NCBI RefSeq assembly: GCF_040760005.1
Contig: NZ_CP099760.1
Coordinates: 3,901,501 to 3,965,500, forward strand
Length of the DNA: 64,000 nt
Direction: 5' to 3'
From: Pseudomonas sp. stari2
Lineage (GTDB): Bacteria; Pseudomonadota; Gammaproteobacteria; Pseudomonadales; Pseudomonadaceae
Every line of letters starts with the position of its first letter. Position 1 is the stretch's first letter. The notes under the pieces are model-generated. The model was not told the DNA's origin, did not search any database, and saw nothing but the letters and a program-made list of their open reading frames with translations. Below are positions 47,588-61,872 of this stretch, in pieces. The translations under genes were made by a program, and so were the position numbers.

Positions 47588-48535
47588 TCAGCGCGCCAGC
47601 GCCTGCTGAAACGACGTATCGATGACGCCTGCCGTGGCCAGCGGAGCCGGCAGCGCCTTGACCTTGAACAGGAAATCCGCGGTGCCTTGCAAGTCGTCAG
47701 CAGCTTGCTGATCCACCGGGCCGACGGTCATGTGCGCCTGGCGCAACCAGTGCCGCGAGACTTCCTGATCGAGATTGGCCTTCTTCGCCCACAAGTCCGC
47801 ATATTCGTCGGTGTGGCTGTCGACCCAGGCTCGGGCCAATTTCAGGCGTCCGAGAAAATCGGCGATCGCTTCACGCTTGCTGTCGATGGACGGTGCAGAA
47901 GCCGCTATGGCGCTCAAGCCCGGCATCAGGTTTTTCGCGGTCAGAATAGGTCGTGCACCGGAGAACACGACCTGCTGGGAAATGTACGGTTCCCATACCG
48001 GGAAGGCATCGATGCTGCCTTGAGGCAACGCGGCAGAGGCATCGATCGGCATCAGCTTGACGAAGTCGACGTAATTCTCCGGCAACCCATTCTGCTCCAG
48101 AGCGCGCAAGGTCAACTGCTGGCTCCAGGCACCCGGCCAGTAAGCGACTTTCTTGCCCTTCAAATCCTCAATGGTTTTCACCGGCGAATCCTTTGGCACC
48201 AACAGTGCGATGGTGTCCGGGTTCTGCCGCGACACGCCGATCAGTTTCACCGGTGCCTGTTTCGCGGCGAGGAACAGAAAACCCGAATCGCCGAGAAAAC
48301 CCAGATCCAGCGAACCGGTCTGTAACGCTTCGGCCAACGGCGCGGCGGCCTGGAAGTGTTTCCAGTCGACCGTGTAAGGCGCGTCCTTCAATACCCCGGA
48401 AGCTTCTACCGAGGCGCGGATGTTGTAGTAATTCTGGTCACCGACGTGCAGGACCACAGGTTCGACAGCGTAAGTCAGAGGCGAGGCAATCAAGGCGCTG
48501 GTCAACGCAGCGCGTAGGAAACGGGAGAGCTTCAT
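47588..48535 (-). CDS. ABC transporter binding protein, sulfonate/nitrate type (1)
   Basis: 315 residues, signal peptide to about residue 23 (SPLTYAVEP). The mature part is a SsuA/NrtA-type fold: VLHVGDQNYYNIRASVEASG, LGFLGDSGFLFLAAKQAPVKLIG, IEDLKGKKVAYWPGAWSQQ and GSIDAFPVWEPYISQQ. Such proteins bind alkanesulfonates or taurine. It is divergent from a second protein of the same family at 48829. The 293-base gap between them holds a sigma-54-like promoter for the other gene. Confidence 0.88.
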   Translation of the reverse strand: MKLSRFLRAALTSALIASPLTYAVEPVVLHVGDQNYYNIRASVEASGVLKDAPYTVDWKHFQAAAPLAEALQTGSLDLGFLGDSGFLFLAAKQAPVKLIGVSRQNPDTIALLVPKDSPVKTIEDLKGKKVAYWPGAWSQQLTLRALEQNGLPENYVDFVKLMPIDASAALPQGSIDAFPVWEPYISQQVVFSGARPILTAKNLMPGLSAIAASAPSIDSKREAIADFLGRLKLARAWVDSHTDEYADLWAKKANLDQEVSRHWLRQAHMTVGPVDQQAADDLQGTADFLFKVKALPAPLATAGVIDTSFQQALAR

Positions 48536-48632: not shown

Positions 48633-48650
48633 CTGTTGGTCTAGCAACAG
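48633..48650. promoter_or_regulatory. 18-bp enhancer-like dyad (copy A)
   Basis: CTGTTG-GTCTAG-CAACAG is a perfect 6-bp inverted repeat. It lies exactly 83 bases upstream of the -24 element of the sigma-54-like promoter at 48734, as does the related dyad at 60188. The distance suits an enhancer-binding activator. A further CAACAG lies at 48675. Confidence 0.55.
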
Positions 48651-48733
48651 TGGCCCGGCACAGTGTTTTCCCGGCAACAGTTCAAAGCGCGTAAATCGCA
48701 TCAAAACCCCGTAAACACGGGGCTCAAGGCATA

Positions 48734-48749
48734 TGGCACAGAGCCTGCA
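48734..48749 (+). promoter_or_regulatory. Sigma-54-like promoter for the binding protein at 48829
   Basis: TGGCAC-AGAGC-CTGCA has GG and GC with exactly ten bases between them, as in the -24/-12 consensus. It lies 80 bases upstream of the ATG. Confidence 0.6.
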
Positions 48750-48828: not shown

Positions 48829-49812
48829 ATGAAATCCCGCTTACCGTTTTCCCGCATCAAAACGCTGCTCGCGGCCTGCGCTGTGGCCCTGAGCCTGCAA
48901 CCTCTCGCCCACGCAGCGGAAACGCCGCCCGCCGAAGTGCATCTGGACTATGCCTATTACTCCCCCGTCAGCCTGGCGCTGAAACATCTGGGTTATCTGG
49001 AAAAGGCCCTGCCCCAGAGCAAGGTCAACTGGGTACTGAGCCAGGGCAGCAACCGTTCGTTGGAATACCTCAACAGCGGCGGCGTGGATTTCGCCTCGTC
49101 GGCCAGCCTCGCGGCAGTATTGAGCCGCGCCAACGGCAGCCCGATCAAATCGGTGTACGTTTACAGCCGCGCCGAGTGGACCGCACTGGTGGTGCGCAAA
49201 GACTCGCCGTACCAGACCGTTGCCGACCTCAAGGGCAAGAAAATCGCCGCCACCAAAGGCACCGACCCGTACCTGTTCACCCTGCGCAGCCTGCAACAGA
49301 CCGGGCTGAAAAAGGACGACGTGGAGCTGGTGCACCTGCAACACCCGGACGGCCGCACCGCGCTGGAAAAAGGTGACGTCGACGCCTGGGCCGGCCTCGA
49401 TCCGCACATGGCCGCCAGCCAGGTACAGGCCGGTTCGCGCCTGCTGTATCGCAACCGCGACTTCAACAGCTACGGCGTGGTCAGCGTCACCGAGCAGTAC
49501 GCCAAGGAACACCCACAAACCATCGACACCGTGATCAAGGCCTATGAACAGGCTCGCGAGTGGTCGGTAAAGAACCCGGACGAACTGGCCAAACTGCTCG
49601 CCAGCGAATCCGGCCTGCCGCTGGATGTGGCCAAACTGCAACTGTCGCGCACCGACCTGAGCAGCCCGCAACTCACCGCCGCCGACGTACTGGCGTCGAA
49701 AGCCGCCGCGCCGATTCTGGTCTCCGAAGAACTGGTGCGCCGTGGGGTGAATGTCGATCATGTCATCGATCAATTGATCGACACCGGTTTCCAGCAAGTC
49801 GCCGCCCAGTAA
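48829..49812 (+). CDS. ABC transporter binding protein, sulfonate/nitrate type (2)
   Basis: 327 residues. Signal peptide ends LAHAAETPP near residue 30. The fold matches SsuA-type proteins: LDYAYYSPVSLALKHLG, VDFASSASLAAVLSRANG, TVADLKGKKIAATKGTDPYLF and DAWAGLDPHMAASQVQAG. The tail IDTGFQQVAAQ resembles that of the divergent paralogue at 47588. It is followed after 61 bases by a permease gene. A sigma-54-like promoter and an enhancer-like dyad lie upstream, so it is likely induced when sulfate is scarce. Met at 48829 has CGGAG upstream. Confidence 0.9.
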   Translation: MKSRLPFSRIKTLLAACAVALSLQPLAHAAETPPAEVHLDYAYYSPVSLALKHLGYLEKALPQSKVNWVLSQGSNRSLEYLNSGGVDFASSASLAAVLSRANGSPIKSVYVYSRAEWTALVVRKDSPYQTVADLKGKKIAATKGTDPYLFTLRSLQQTGLKKDDVELVHLQHPDGRTALEKGDVDAWAGLDPHMAASQVQAGSRLLYRNRDFNSYGVVSVTEQYAKEHPQTIDTVIKAYEQAREWSVKNPDELAKLLASESGLPLDVAKLQLSRTDLSSPQLTAADVLASKAAAPILVSEELVRRGVNVDHVIDQLIDTGFQQVAAQ

Positions 49813-49873
49813 CCAATCGGGCTCACAACAAGTCCGCGCCCGTCGCGGATTTGTCGTGAGCGGAGAACCGCCC

Positions 49874-50710
49874 ATGAGCAATGACCTGCCCGCCCGCCTC
49901 GCCGTGCCGCTGTCGCGCCGACAAATCCTGCCGTTGAATCCGCCCTGGCGGCGCCTTAGAGGGTTGGCCCTGCCGCTGCTGATCGTGATCGCCCTGGAGA
50001 TCATCGTGCGCGTCGGCTGGCTGCCGTCCTATCAAATGCCTGCGCCGAGCGAGATCGCCCTGACCCTCTTCGATCTGGCCGAAGGCGCACTGTGGAAACA
50101 CATCGGCGCCAGCCTGATCCGCGTGCTGATCGGGTTTGCCATCGGCGCGAGTCTGGCCTTGGTATTTGCTGCGTGGGTCGGCCTGAGCCGTGAGGCGGAG
50201 GCGTACCTGGAGCCAACCTTTGCCGCGCTTCGCTCGATTCCCAGTCTGGCCTGGGTGCCGCTGTTGCTATTGTGGCTGGGCATCGACGAGACCTCGAAAA
50301 TCGTCCTGATCGCCATTGGTGCGTTCTTCCCGGTATACGTCAACGTCGTCGCGGCAATCCGCAACATCGACCGCAAACTGGTGGAAGTCGGCCGCATCTA
50401 TGGTTTCAGTCGCCTGCAACTGGTGCATCGGATTCTGCTGCCCGCTGCCCTGCCCGGCCTGTTCACCGGGCTACGCAGCGGCATGAGTCTGGCGTGGATG
50501 TTTCTGGTGGCGGCCGAGCTGATCGCGGCGACCAAGGGGCTGGGTTACCTGTTGAGTGACGGGCGCGAAACCTCGCGACCGGACATCGTACTGGCGGCGA
50601 TTATCGTGTTGGCGCTGCTGGGCAAACTCAGCGATGGGCTGCTCGCCGCGCTCGAGCGCCGCTGGCTGGCCTGGCGCGACACCTTTACCGGCCAGGGCAG
50701 CAAGGACTGA
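49874..50710 (+). CDS. ABC transporter permease, SsuC-like
   Basis: 278 residues, six membrane segments. The BPD-type inner-membrane signature is in EVGRIYGFSRLQLVHRILLPAALPG, with the conserved EAA loop that contacts the ATPase. LRSIPSLAWVPLLLLWLGIDETSK is a SsuC/TauC-group hallmark. GGAG lies before Met 49874. It pairs with the binding protein upstream. No ATP-binding subunit follows; the next gene is an unrelated SRAP protein, so the ATPase must be encoded elsewhere or shared. Confidence 0.92.
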   Translation: MSNDLPARLAVPLSRRQILPLNPPWRRLRGLALPLLIVIALEIIVRVGWLPSYQMPAPSEIALTLFDLAEGALWKHIGASLIRVLIGFAIGASLALVFAAWVGLSREAEAYLEPTFAALRSIPSLAWVPLLLLWLGIDETSKIVLIAIGAFFPVYVNVVAAIRNIDRKLVEVGRIYGFSRLQLVHRILLPAALPGLFTGLRSGMSLAWMFLVAAELIAATKGLGYLLSDGRETSRPDIVLAAIIVLALLGKLSDGLLAALERRWLAWRDTFTGQGSKD

Positions 50711-56922: not shown

Positions 56923-57129
56923 ATGAAAGACTTTATCGCCCTCGGGTTCATCATCGCGCTGATCGGCGCCACCTCCGCGATTGCCAACGCCCATGGCAAC
57001 GGGCACGTCGTTGCCATGACGAGTGTCGGCCAGTCCGGCATCGTCGGCCTTGGCAGCGCAGCCACGGGCAGCCTGGAGCAGACGCTCTACGTTGCGCAGA
57101 ACGCCTCCGAGTACGGTTACAACTACTGA
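56923..57129 (+). CDS. Small exported protein, unknown
   Basis: 68 residues with a signal-like start (KDFIALGFIIALIGATSAIANA) and a mature part rich in Gly, Ser and Ala ending SEYGYNY. Probably exported. The family is not recognised and no clear ribosome-binding site is seen. Its end overlaps the end of the convergent flavoprotein by seven bases. Confidence 0.6.
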   Translation: MKDFIALGFIIALIGATSAIANAHGNGHVVAMTSVGQSGIVGLGSAATGSLEQTLYVAQNASEYGYNY

Positions 57130-58526
57130 GCCACCAGGCGCACCGCCAACGCCTTGGCCTGCGACGCAACATCGGTCACCGCCGTACTTTCCCACCACAT
57201 CCCTCTCAGTGGCGGGCCCATCGCGAACAGTCGTTGTGACACGTTTCCCTGCGCATCCAGCACCGCACCGTCCACCGCCGCCGCAATTCCCAGCGCCAAA
57301 GGCCCCGGTTGCACCAGCCCACGGGCCAGCAATTGTTGCGGCAAGGGTCGGTCGACGCGGCGCCAGTCATACTCGATACCGCTGGAATTGATCAGCGCCG
57401 CGCCTTGCACCACGCGTGTTTCATTTTCACCCCGACGACGGATGCGAATCCCGACACCAGCGCCCGACACCGGTTCCAGACCTTTATAGGACGCTGCGTG
57501 AATACGCAGGCGTCCTTCGCGGTGCAGACGCGCAACCAACTCCGCACTCAGTGGAGGCGAACGATGGTGATGGCTCTCCCACCACGGCCGCACATGCCGC
57601 ACGAATTGCCGGCGCTGTACATCGCTCGCCTGGCTCCACAGCCGACCGATGTGCGCGCGTACGGTGTCCAGCGGTGCCTGCCAGTCGATGCCTTGATTGA
57701 TGGCATCCCGGCAATGCCGGCGCAATTCACGCAGTAACTGGCGTGGCGTGCGGATACTGTGATCCTCGGCGAGGAAGTCCACCCACGCAGGCGGCTGGCG
57801 ACGGACATGGGGCAGCAGCCCGTGCCGGGAAAACACCTCGATCGGCCCGCGATGCCCGGCCTGCTCCAGCGAAACCACGGCATCGACCATGGTCAGGCCG
57901 GAGCCGATGATCAGCACGGTCGATTGCGGATCGAGCTGGCGCATGGCGCCCACATCCCAAGGATCGAGCCCAGCCGCGTTGAGGCCGCTGGATTGCGTTT
58001 GCGGCGTACGGGCGGCGGGGAACATACCGGTGGCGAGCACCGCAAAAGCGCCTTGCAGTCGCCGGCCATCGCTCAAGGAGAGCTGCACCGAATCGGCTGA
58101 AGCCTGTACATCAATCACCTCTGCGCGCACGTGCTCGACCGTCGAACCATGCTGCCTGCCCACCAGCTGCGCTTCAGCCAGTCGCTGCTGCACATACACA
58201 CCGAACAGACCTCGTGGCGGAAACAGTTCGCTGACTGGTACATGTTGCTGATCCGACTCCGGCCAGCCGCCGCTGGCAATGTGATCAGTCAGCCATTGAG
58301 TCAGGTCCTCGGCGTTGCTGGGGTCGACGCTCATTCGCGCTGCGTTGCCATTGAGCGTATGGCCCAGTTCAACCGCGCTGTACGCTTCGCCCCGGCCCAA
58401 TTCGGCCCGGGGCTCGACTACCAGAATCCGTCGCCGCCCCGGCAGGCGCAGCAATTGCACCGCCAGCATCGTGCCGCTGAGGCCGCCGCCGACAATCAGG
58501 ATGTCGGCCGTATCGGTTTGAGTCAT
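57123..58526 (-). CDS. FAD/NAD(P)-binding flavoprotein (SidA/HpnW-like fold)
   Basis: 467 residues. FAD fold ILIVGGGLSGTMLAVQL at 9-25, NAD(P) fold VLIIGSGLTMVDAVVSLEQ near 204-222, and a conserved RHGLLPHVRR segment. It matches the FAD/NAD(P)-binding proteins related to N-hydroxylating flavoproteins. Substrate unknown. It is followed upstream by the NtaA/DszA-family monooxygenase on the same strand, 60 bases apart, so they may be co-transcribed and work together. Confidence 0.85.
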   Translation of the reverse strand: MTQTDTADILIVGGGLSGTMLAVQLLRLPGRRRILVVEPRAELGRGEAYSAVELGHTLNGNAARMSVDPSNAEDLTQWLTDHIASGGWPESDQQHVPVSELFPPRGLFGVYVQQRLAEAQLVGRQHGSTVEHVRAEVIDVQASADSVQLSLSDGRRLQGAFAVLATGMFPAARTPQTQSSGLNAAGLDPWDVGAMRQLDPQSTVLIIGSGLTMVDAVVSLEQAGHRGPIEVFSRHGLLPHVRRQPPAWVDFLAEDHSIRTPRQLLRELRRHCRDAINQGIDWQAPLDTVRAHIGRLWSQASDVQRRQFVRHVRPWWESHHHRSPPLSAELVARLHREGRLRIHAASYKGLEPVSGAGVGIRIRRRGENETRVVQGAALINSSGIEYDWRRVDRPLPQQLLARGLVQPGPLALGIAAAVDGAVLDAQGNVSQRLFAMGPPLRGMWWESTAVTDVASQAKALAVRLVAQ

Positions 58527-58585: not shown

Positions 58586-59989
58586 CTAGACAGACGTAAC
58601 CTTTTTCTCCTGCCGACGCAGTTCACCCAGGTTTCGATAACCGCTGCCCGGATGGATCTGCGGCAATTTCGGCCCTTCGCCAAACAGCTTCTCGCGTAAC
58701 GTTCCGGGTGCGTAATCGGTCTTGTAGACGCCGCGTTTCTGCAGCTCAGGCACCAACAATTCCACGGCGTCGATGAAGGTTTCGTGGGTCAATGCGTAGG
58801 CCAGGTTGAAGCCATCGACGTCGGTTTCGTCGACCCATTCCTGTAGCAGGTCAGCGACGGTTTCCGGGCTGCCGACGAACAACGGGCCGAAACCGCCGAT
58901 ACCGACCCAGTCGGCCAGCTCATTCGGAGTCCAGACCTTGTTCGGGTCCGCTGTCGAAAACGCTTCCACGGCAGACTGAATCGCGTTGGTATGTACGTGC
59001 TTGAGCGGTTCGTCCGGTTTGAAGCGGCTGAAGTCGATACCGGTCCAGCCCGAAATCAGCGCCATCGCACCCTCGTAACTCACCCAGGATTTGTATTCTT
59101 CGAACTTGGCTTTGGCCTTGGCATCGGTCTCGCCGAGGATCACGGTTTGCAGGTTGAAGATCAGGATCTTCGACGGATCTCGCCCGGCCTCGGCGGCGCG
59201 ACGGCGAATGTCGGCCACGGTTTTCTTGAGTAGCACTTTCGACGGTGCCGCGACAAATACGCACTCGGCATGTTCAGCGGCAAACTGTTTGCCACGGCTG
59301 GACGCGCCCGCCTGATAGAGAACCGGTGTGCGCTGCGGCGACGGCTCGCAAAGGTGAATGCCCGGCACGTGGAAGTGTTTACCGTGGTGGCGGATCTCGT
59401 GGATCTTGCTCGGGTCACTGAAGATCCGCCGCTCGCGATCCCGCAAAATCGCGCCATCTTCCCAGCTGCCTTCCCAGAGTTTGTAGCAGACCTCCAGGTA
59501 TTCCTCGGCGAAGTCGTAGCGCGCGTCGTGTTCGGTCTGGGCTTGCTGGCCGATGTTTTTCGCACCGCTCTCCAGATAGGACGTGACGATGTTCCAGCCG
59601 GCGCGGCCCTTGGTCAGGTGATCGAGGGTCGACAGGCGTCGGGCAAATGGATACGGATGCTCGAAGGACAACGATGCGGTCAGACCGAAACCCAAGTGCT
59701 CGGTGACCAGAGCCATCGGCGGGATCAATTGCAACGGATCGTTGACCGGCACCTGCGCCGCCTGCCGGATCGCTGCTTTGCCGTTGCCGTTGTACACGTC
59801 GTAGATGCCCAGCACGTCGGCGATGAACAAGCCGTCGAACTTGCCGCGCTCGAGGATTTTCGCCAGATCGATCCAGTACTCCAGATCCTTGTACTGCCAG
59901 GAACGATCGCGAGGGTGCGCCCACAGGCCCGGCGACTGGTGGCCGACGCAGTTCATGTCGAAGGCGTTGAGACGGATTTCGCGGGGCAT
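58586..59989 (-). CDS. NtaA/DszA/SnaA-family FMN-dependent monooxygenase
   Basis: 467 residues, within the 440-480 range of nitrilotriacetate/dibenzothiophene-sulfone/dimethylsulfide monooxygenases. DGLFIADVLGIYDVYNG, LTASLSFEHPYPFARRLSTLDHLTKGRAGWNIVTS and VLYQAGASSRGKQFAAEHAECVFVA are the family's barrel motifs. It uses reduced FMN and O2. A sigma-54-like promoter and an enhancer-like dyad lie upstream, matching those of the sulfonate-type binding protein, suggesting an organosulfur substrate. The ATG overlaps the stop of an 18-codon leader (TGATG). Confidence 0.9.
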   Translation of the reverse strand: MPREIRLNAFDMNCVGHQSPGLWAHPRDRSWQYKDLEYWIDLAKILERGKFDGLFIADVLGIYDVYNGNGKAAIRQAAQVPVNDPLQLIPPMALVTEHLGFGLTASLSFEHPYPFARRLSTLDHLTKGRAGWNIVTSYLESGAKNIGQQAQTEHDARYDFAEEYLEVCYKLWEGSWEDGAILRDRERRIFSDPSKIHEIRHHGKHFHVPGIHLCEPSPQRTPVLYQAGASSRGKQFAAEHAECVFVAAPSKVLLKKTVADIRRRAAEAGRDPSKILIFNLQTVILGETDAKAKAKFEEYKSWVSYEGAMALISGWTGIDFSRFKPDEPLKHVHTNAIQSAVEAFSTADPNKVWTPNELADWVGIGGFGPLFVGSPETVADLLQEWVDETDVDGFNLAYALTHETFIDAVELLVPELQKRGVYKTDYAPGTLREKLFGEGPKLPQIHPGSGYRNLGELRRQEKKVTSV

Positions 59990-60045
59990 CAGGCGGCACT
60001 CCCGATGTTCAGGAGGCGTTTAGAGGTTTGATTTGAAGCGGTCAT
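59989..60045 (-). CDS. 18-codon leader peptide ahead of the monooxygenase
   Basis: ATG at 60045 with GGAG upstream begins MTASNQTSKRLLNIGSAA and ends TGA, which shares one base with the ATG of the monooxygenase (TGATG). Such overlap promotes re-initiation. It is the first coding frame after the sigma-54-like promoter. The peptide itself need not be functional. Confidence 0.5.
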   Translation of the reverse strand: MTASNQTSKRLLNIGSAA

Positions 60046-60104: not shown

Positions 60105-60187
60105 GAATATATTTTCTTTATTTATCAATAAATTGAGACAACAACTTAAAGCAATCCGAGCGAAAGACAGAGCAAACTGTTTATCCG

Positions 60188-61856: not shown

Positions 61857-61872
61857 TGGCACGTATGATGCT
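61857..61872 (+). promoter_or_regulatory. Possible sigma-54-like promoter of the antiporter operon
   Basis: TGGCACG-TATG-ATGCT: GG and GC are ten bases apart, one mismatch from consensus. It is only 28 bases before the ATG, so the leader would be very short. Confidence 0.35.

Follow-up and report, generated by a model that had tools for sequence, protein, structure and literature searches.

Putative SfnR-Dependent Sulfur Genes in Pseudomonas

The closest described system is that of Pseudomonas putida, where SfnR and sigma-54 are reported to control sfnFG and sfnA under the general theme of sulfate starvation, with CysB placed above SfnR (Endoh 2003, Endoh 2005, Habe 2007, Kouzuma 2008). Reportedly, sfnFG is a target of SfnR (Endoh 2005), and sfnA is under the control of a sigma-54-dependent activator (Habe 2007). 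The P. putida operon pairs sfnA with sfnB. The SfnR2 regulon of P. aeruginosa, as reported (Lundgren 2019), resembles the system considered here in the family of the regulator and in DMS-related sulfur use, the species being different. No description of the site presented below was found in the literature around SfnR; the primary SfnR papers were outside this search, and no claim is made that the site is unpublished.

Sigma-54 promoters are recognised by a GG at -24 and a GC at -12, separated by 10 bp (TGGCAY-N5-TTGCW). Classical promoters of the NtrC, NifA, and XylR type combine tandem upstream sites, an optional IHF bend, and a -24/-12 promoter, features that the promoters described here would share. 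Unlike in the classical cases, the gap between enhancer and promoter falls here largely into a few helical-phase classes across unrelated genes, and the enhancer is a polar array of three half-sites. In comparison with the P. putida system, the putative activator is of the same sigma-54-dependent type, the sulfate-starvation theme is shared, and the strain's own sfnG carries the site. The sites also stand before an SsuA-family binding-protein operon, ntaA operons, genes for nickel/peptide-type binding proteins, the ssuE gene of certain species, and msuEDC-sfnR operons that begin with msuE.

Two Candidate Sigma-54 Promoters in the Window

The window, which is the whole stretch of 64,000 nucleotides analysed from Pseudomonas sp. 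stari2, bears two copies of the arrangement on opposite strands, 11 kb apart. One of them precedes the gene of an SsuA-family sulfonate-type substrate-binding protein (SBP; 48829..49812, + strand), which matches TIGR01728 with 247 bits (cutoff 163.5) and Pfam NMT1. Its enhancer starts with dyad 1, CTGTTG-N6-CAACAG (CTGTTGGTCTAGCAACAG, 48633-48650, +), followed on the promoter side, 11 bp past CAACA, by a third half-site, CGGCA (48656..48660, +; letters checked), and by a weaker second dyad, TGTTT-N6-CAACA (48664..48679, +), 30 bp beyond dyad 1. A dyad 30 bp after dyad 1 is seen again in many SBP orthologues. The putative -24/-12 element, TGGCACAGAGCCTGCA (48734-48749, +), has a single mismatch to TGGCAC-N5-TTGCW and keeps both GG and GC. 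The SBP gene probably shares its operon with an SsuC-like ABC permease gene (49856..50710, +; PF00528), whose best model, NF008470, gives 213.7 bits, under the cutoff of 347.

The transporter parts encoded by the SBP operon (48829-50710) are a binding protein and a permease; the ORF that follows on this strand is an SRAP-family gene, not an ATPase, and the ATPase for this transporter may be borrowed from another one. A second SsuA-family binding-protein gene (47588-48535, -) diverges from the first, and a divergent pair is kept in 11 loci of relatives, with 28-31% identity. Control of this divergent gene by the same enhancer was considered but found no support: the minus strand between the gene and the dyad contains no -24/-12 match at two mismatches.

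The other promoter faces the opposite way and precedes the gene of an NtaA/DmoA-family FMN-dependent monooxygenase (ntaA; 58586..59989, -; TIGR03860 with 570.9 bits, cutoff 279.7), which probably forms one operon with the FAD/NAD(P)-binding protein gene located 3′ of it (57123..58526, -; PF13454). Here, dyad 1 reads CTGTTG-N6-CGACAG (CTGTTGCAAGGCCGACAG, 60205-60188, -), the third half-site AAACA (60178..60182, -; letters checked) occupies the position conserved in the logo described below, and the putative -24/-12 element, AGGCACGACTCCTGCA (60104-60089, -), has two mismatches to the consensus, with GG and GC kept. An exact match to the IHF consensus, TATCAATAAATTG (60123..60135, +), lies between enhancer and promoter. 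The gap between dyad and -24/-12 element is 83 bases at both promoters; it is counted here from the end of CAACA or CGACA to the GG of -24, whereby 83 bases become 85. The coordinates, dyads, -24/-12 elements, and 83-base gaps given in the initial annotation are exact to the base at both sites. One further -24/-12-like match in the window, TGGCACGTATGATGCT at 61857-61872 (+), with one mismatch, has no SfnR-type enhancer nearby.

Taken alone, the dyad with up to two mismatches is found 18 times in the window against 11.5 expected, a number reached by 8 of 100 shuffles, and -24/-12-like matches with two mismatches number 39 against 43.6 expected, which is the chance level. Since neither element by itself is clearly enriched, the signal is carried by their joint arrangement. 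The 6,310,573-bp genome contains the exact dyad CTGTTG-N6-CRACAG four times (209193, 3950133, 3961688, and 5480369), two of these being the window sites; the dyads at 209193 and 5480369 were dropped, being located within long ORFs with no -24/-12 match downstream. A 36-bp model (R1) was then run on the genome (6.3 Mb), with 150 of 6475 first-look candidates scored; it was derived from 72 training sites, from which the two window sites and that of msuEDC-sfnR were held out, the strain's own sfnG site being included. In this full-genome scan, of the kind proposed in the initial annotation, the two window sites take ranks 1 (SBP, 23.7 bits) and 2 (ntaA, 23.0 bits), followed in third place by the training site before sfnG (21.9) and by msuEDC-sfnR (21.5); the next scores are 15.7, which is the SBP dyad read backwards, and 15.4.

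Enhancer Architecture across the Genus

The pattern TGTTG-N6-CRACA, gap, GGCAY-N6-TGC was searched for in 119 Pseudomonas genomes, including that of the strain itself. With gaps of 70-100, 102 sites were found in 55 of the 119 genomes versus 1 for a reversed-pattern control; gaps of 101-131 gave 25 sites in 21 genomes (2 in the control), and gaps of 39-69 gave 40 sites in 37 genomes (1 in the control). The combination of dyad and -24/-12 element thus recurs in related Pseudomonas, where a scan had been suggested at the outset, and this recurrence agrees with the original opinion that the arrangement is unlikely to arise by chance. Outside the genus, gaps of 70-100 gave a match in 14 of 368 other genomes of the class (control, 1), and a third half-site was present in 1 of these 14 matches (13 were read, and L407 was judged by eye). 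Three loci, L404-L406 (three genomes, one non-Pseudomonas family), display a TGTTG-N6-CAACA dyad, then an imperfect dyad, and then a -24/-12-like element; this arrangement may belong to a different activator.

A logo was built from 106 of 111 sites, with L109, L172, L174, L187, and L160 at gap 65 left out as likely chance matches. It reveals a third half-site, RACA, 11 bp past CAACA, which was absent from the search pattern, and a second dyad that is faintly visible 30 bp after the first. Sites with gaps of 70-100 carry this half-site towards the promoter in 93 of 102 cases and those with gaps of 101-131 in 19 of 25, against 0 of 40 with gaps of 39-69. The 18-bp dyad described initially is therefore real but forms only part of a larger element, which includes the third half-site and often a second weak dyad. 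In orthologues, TGTTT or TGTTC is tolerated as the first half-site.

Half of the short-gap class (20 of the 40 sites with gaps of 39-69) was inspected. Twelve sites (gap 42-54) lie before SfnB-like genes, with the third half-site on the far side in 12 of 12, so that the enhancer is seen here from behind. Five more, with gaps of 56-58, belong to SBP promoters, each of which has a dyad 1 another 30 bp upstream (5 of 5), and the remaining three, with gaps of 62-65, were assigned to neither group. The idea that gaps of 42-58 constitute a separate architecture was dropped, since the inspected ones are reversed enhancers (12) or cases with dyad 1 further upstream (5). An sfnG gene is located beyond the SfnB-like gene in 10 of the inspected short-gap loci. 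At L102, L111, L129, L146, and L204, a single enhancer stands between divergent sfnG and SfnB-like genes, with a -24/-12 match at a fitting gap in either direction (89-101 and 42).

Gap Classes and the IHF-like Site

Among the 93 sites of the 70-100 range with the third half-site towards the promoter, the gap is 72-75 (26 sites), 84-87 (59), 89 (5), 96 (2), or 100 (1), the range of 76-83 being empty; among the 19 such sites with longer gaps, it is 101-102 (8), 107-110 (9), 112 (1), or 121 (1). Successive classes (74, 85, 96, and 107) differ by about one helical turn, in a set of sites that are related and so not independent. The exceptions to this phase are the 89 and 100-102 classes (14 sites), and all 8 of those whose downstream gene was checked are sfnG promoters. 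The 83-base gap (85 in our counting), initially considered fixed, is therefore the commonest but not the sole one.

The consensus for IHF is WATCAANNNNTTR. Its sole exact match in the 64 kb lies in the ntaA promoter; with 0.66 matches expected by chance, this alone proves nothing. Across the genus, a match with at most one mismatch is found 30-31 bp upstream of the GG of -24, in constant orientation, in 33 of 59 promoters with gaps of 83-88 from six gene families; this position was spotted by eye first and tested afterwards, and shuffled spacers have a match at the same place with a mean of 0.15 and a maximum of 2 in 200 trials. With the whole spacer allowed, such a match is present in 38 of 93 promoters, versus 6.0 in shuffles (at most 13). 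Among named ntaA/sfnB promoters, 52 of the 63 that passed a stricter filter (of 80 loci) have the match. The SBP promoter in the window has no IHF-like site, the best match having three mismatches, and this difference from the ntaA promoter was missing from the initial annotation. In the SBP family, the match occurs at the conserved place in 0 of 10 promoters, and msu promoters have no match at a consistent place. IHF as the full explanation of the 85-bp gap was rejected because SBP and msu promoters keep this gap without a consistent IHF-like site.

The SfnR-Type Protein and Its Distribution

The genome of the strain contains 23 strong and 5 weak matches to the sigma-54 activator domain (PF00158), none of them in the window. 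The SfnR-type candidate among these enhancer-binding proteins (EBPs) is a protein of 367 residues encoded by the last gene of msuE-msuD-msuC-sfnR; it is short, has no N-terminal receiver domain, possesses a Fis-type C-terminus, and belongs to an msu operon, all of which are traits of an SfnR-type EBP. No SfnR model is among its 25 best NCBIfam matches, and its 120 best relatives carry generic names. The C-terminal 100 residues of this EBP have a match in 79 of the 119 genomes, which is strong (E at most 1.1e-28, a line drawn for this work) in 76; in one of the latter, G005, there is a stop inside the match.

Pattern sites with any gap and a strong SfnR match occur together in 65 of the 119 genomes, with the site only in 4, SfnR only in 11, and neither in 39. 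Hits of the model, obtained genus-wide under stricter filters with 57 candidates scored per genome and with many training sites from the same genomes, give 68 genomes with both, 3 with the model hit only, 8 with SfnR only, and 40 with neither. These are raw counts that include shared ancestry, and SfnR alone among the EBPs of the genome was profiled in this way. A strong SfnR match lies within 25 kb of 23 of 164 distinct sites. Two genomes, G057 and G060, have a model hit without any SfnR match, and G102 has one with a weaker match only (51% identity, E 2.8e-15). In G057, sfnG has a full site, yet no SfnR is found within the 19.5 kb examined.

A 310-residue protein of the sigma-54 activator type is encoded at G000:C1:465467-465943 (L078:1408-2337), just upstream of a gene for a MetQ-like binding protein. 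By eye, it has no Fis-type helix-turn-helix at the C-terminus, and it may act at a methionine transporter as an activator that does not bind DNA.

Putative Target Genes and the msu Operon

Downstream ORFs were grouped into families, and ten representatives were scanned with profiles. Curated NCBIfam cutoffs were exceeded by SfnG (from the strain itself), SfnB, and SsuE; the presence of SfnG downstream of the site matters because sfnFG of P. putida is a reported target of SfnR (Endoh 2005). Three further matches stayed below the cutoff: one SfnB-like protein, one nickel/peptide-type binding protein, and one TonB-dependent receptor (at L213, a doubtful site without a third half-site). A sugar-type ATPase and an amino-acid-type permease matched general transporter models only, and L163 and L140 had no profile match at the threshold used. 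The flavin-reductase matches L207-L209 and L214 were considered as possible sfnFG and dropped, as no SfnG was found in the stretch behind them; L208, the one scanned, matches SsuE.

The msu promoter of the strain consists of a degenerate dyad and a third half-site with a gap of 85 from TGGTACAGCGCTTGCT. Operons in which msuE is the first gene detected have the enhancer with a gap of 83-87 in 27 of 27 cases, the strain's own included. In the 14 sfnR loci where another gene was detected first (11 msuD, 2 sfnR, and 1 msuC), the 300 bp upstream contain no combination of dyad and promoter; L400 among them starts at the end of a contig and does not count as a true test. Two others of the 14, L378 and L398, have an enhancer-like model match near msuD (17.4 and 20.1 bits) but lack a -24/-12 match at any of the gaps allowed. 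From this distribution, feedback of SfnR on its own synthesis is predicted for the msuE-first type only. The site in L398 (2541-2580) is a near-perfect enhancer with a third half-site beside msuD and no -24/-12 match in reach; the promoter there has either decayed or does not conform to the search pattern.

Conservation at Orthologous Loci

The initial annotation tied its reading to the conservation of the dyads in related strains, and the enhancer with its promoter is indeed kept in 27 of 30 SBP and 71 of 80 ntaA loci when up to two mismatches are allowed in the dyad. For SBP, 30 loci (own included) were examined out of 50 genomes with a match, and the 27 positive ones combine the enhancer with a TGGCAC promoter at a gap of 75 (2 loci) or 84-88 (25 loci); L251 and L252 have the enhancer with a weak promoter match only, and L254 has no enhancer. 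The 571 ntaA loci were narrowed to the best 80 from named Pseudomonas, and the 71 positive ones have the third half-site and a gap of 83-86 before the first gene of the operon, with TGTTT or TGTTC often serving as the first half-site. Two of the others, L297 and L334, are doubtful, and seven have no match, including L327, where the contig starts 91 bp before the gene. The GG and GC of the -24/-12 element, with their spacing, are retained in most of the orthologues examined.

Proposed Mechanism and Alternative Explanations

The architecture of the sites, its conservation, its specificity genome-wide, and its co-occurrence with an SfnR-type gene are direct observations; beyond them, the two window promoters are very probably sigma-54 promoters of a sulfate-starvation regulon activated by SfnR. 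An SfnR-type EBP encoded elsewhere in the genome by msuE-msuD-msuC-sfnR would activate both of them upon sulfate starvation by binding to an array of half-sites, namely the dyad TGTTN-N6-CAACA, a half-site 11 bp further on, and often a weak second dyad 30 bp after the first. It would contact the RNA polymerase–sigma-54 complex at -24/-12 across a spacer of mostly preferred helical phase, which is mostly 84-87 bp and otherwise about 73-75, 96, or 107-110 bp, with exceptions. Bending of the spacer by IHF is probable at the ntaA promoter; the SBP promoter has no IHF-like site. In msuE-first operons, SfnR would activate its own operon, thus creating positive feedback. A single SfnR-type activator for both genes, as the initial annotation supposed, is also the best reading of the model search, which singles out these two promoters together with those of sfnG and msuEDC-sfnR; the genus-wide co-occurrence with the sfnR gene and the location of the site before SfnG and SfnB genes point the same way. 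The SfnR regulon known from P. putida would, on the best reading, extend here to the SBP and ntaA operons and, where msuE comes first, to sfnR itself.

A strain with 23 strong PF00158 matches offers other candidates, and one of these EBPs could bind the dyad at sigma-54 promoters, SfnR merely sharing the same gene-content history. The genomes that have the site with no SfnR match (G057 and G060) or with a weaker one (G102) fit such a view, as does the presence in some genomes of SfnR paralogues with a related C-terminus. It is nevertheless unlikely, given that a strong SfnR match accompanies the model hit in 68 of 71 genomes and that the site precedes the sfnR-bearing operon itself in all msuE-first cases, as well as sfnG and sfnB genes. 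Sulfur genes are also controlled by CysB and other LysR-type regulators, and dyads are common as operators, so that the dyad might be the operator of a one-component regulator at an overlapping or separate sigma-70 promoter, with coincidental -24/-12 matches. This is very improbable in view of the 102-to-1 ratio of the joint pattern to its reversed control, the restriction of the gap to a few classes, and the GG/GC spacing preserved in most orthologues. Finally, two unrelated dyads could share one gap by accident, and the lack of clear enrichment of either element alone in the window at two mismatches would agree with this; conservation in orthologues and the top two ranks in the genome already refute it, genus-wide recurrence speaks against it as well, and its probability is negligible.

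With SfnR activation as the preferred explanation, the data provide a testable site definition for the sulfur-starvation regulon across Pseudomonas and would assign a regulator to two organic-sulfur scavenging operons of a soil Pseudomonas. They also yield the prediction that feedback on sfnR by its own product is confined to operons of the msuE-first type, and a natural set of promoters for comparing enhancer phase and IHF bending under a single activator. More tentatively, and with somewhat more doubt than confidence, all these features may be parts of one joint code: a polar, face-locked array of three or more half-sites placed whole turns from -24/-12 (by default 84-87 bp), with IHF at one place in a subset, two-sided use between divergent genes, and an activator operon that obeys the code only in msuE-first lineages. 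If such a largely rigid code is true, the regulon of any SfnR-bearing Pseudomonas would be readable from sequence.

History of the ntaA Promoter

The gene order in the 80 ntaA loci is XRE-cupin, sfnB, ntaA in 55, sfnB-ntaA in 10, XRE-cupin-ntaA without sfnB in 9, and ntaA alone in 6. Where the enhancer is found, it is located before sfnB, or before ntaA when sfnB is absent. The window locus has the order XRE-cupin-ntaA without sfnB. Its ntaA gene is preceded by an 18-codon leader ORF, MTASNQTSKRLLNIGSAA (59989..60045, -), whose stop overlaps the ntaA ATG (TGATG); the leader resembles the beginning of sfnB, sharing the upstream CGGAGTCG and an MTAS start, and is taken for the remnant of a lost sfnB gene. 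From this likeness, we infer that sfnB was deleted at the window locus and that its promoter was captured by ntaA. The enhancer of the window ntaA promoter starts immediately behind the TGA (60208-60206, -) that ends the XRE-cupin regulator gene, and, as judged by eye, gene and enhancer are packed equally tightly in about eleven relatives.
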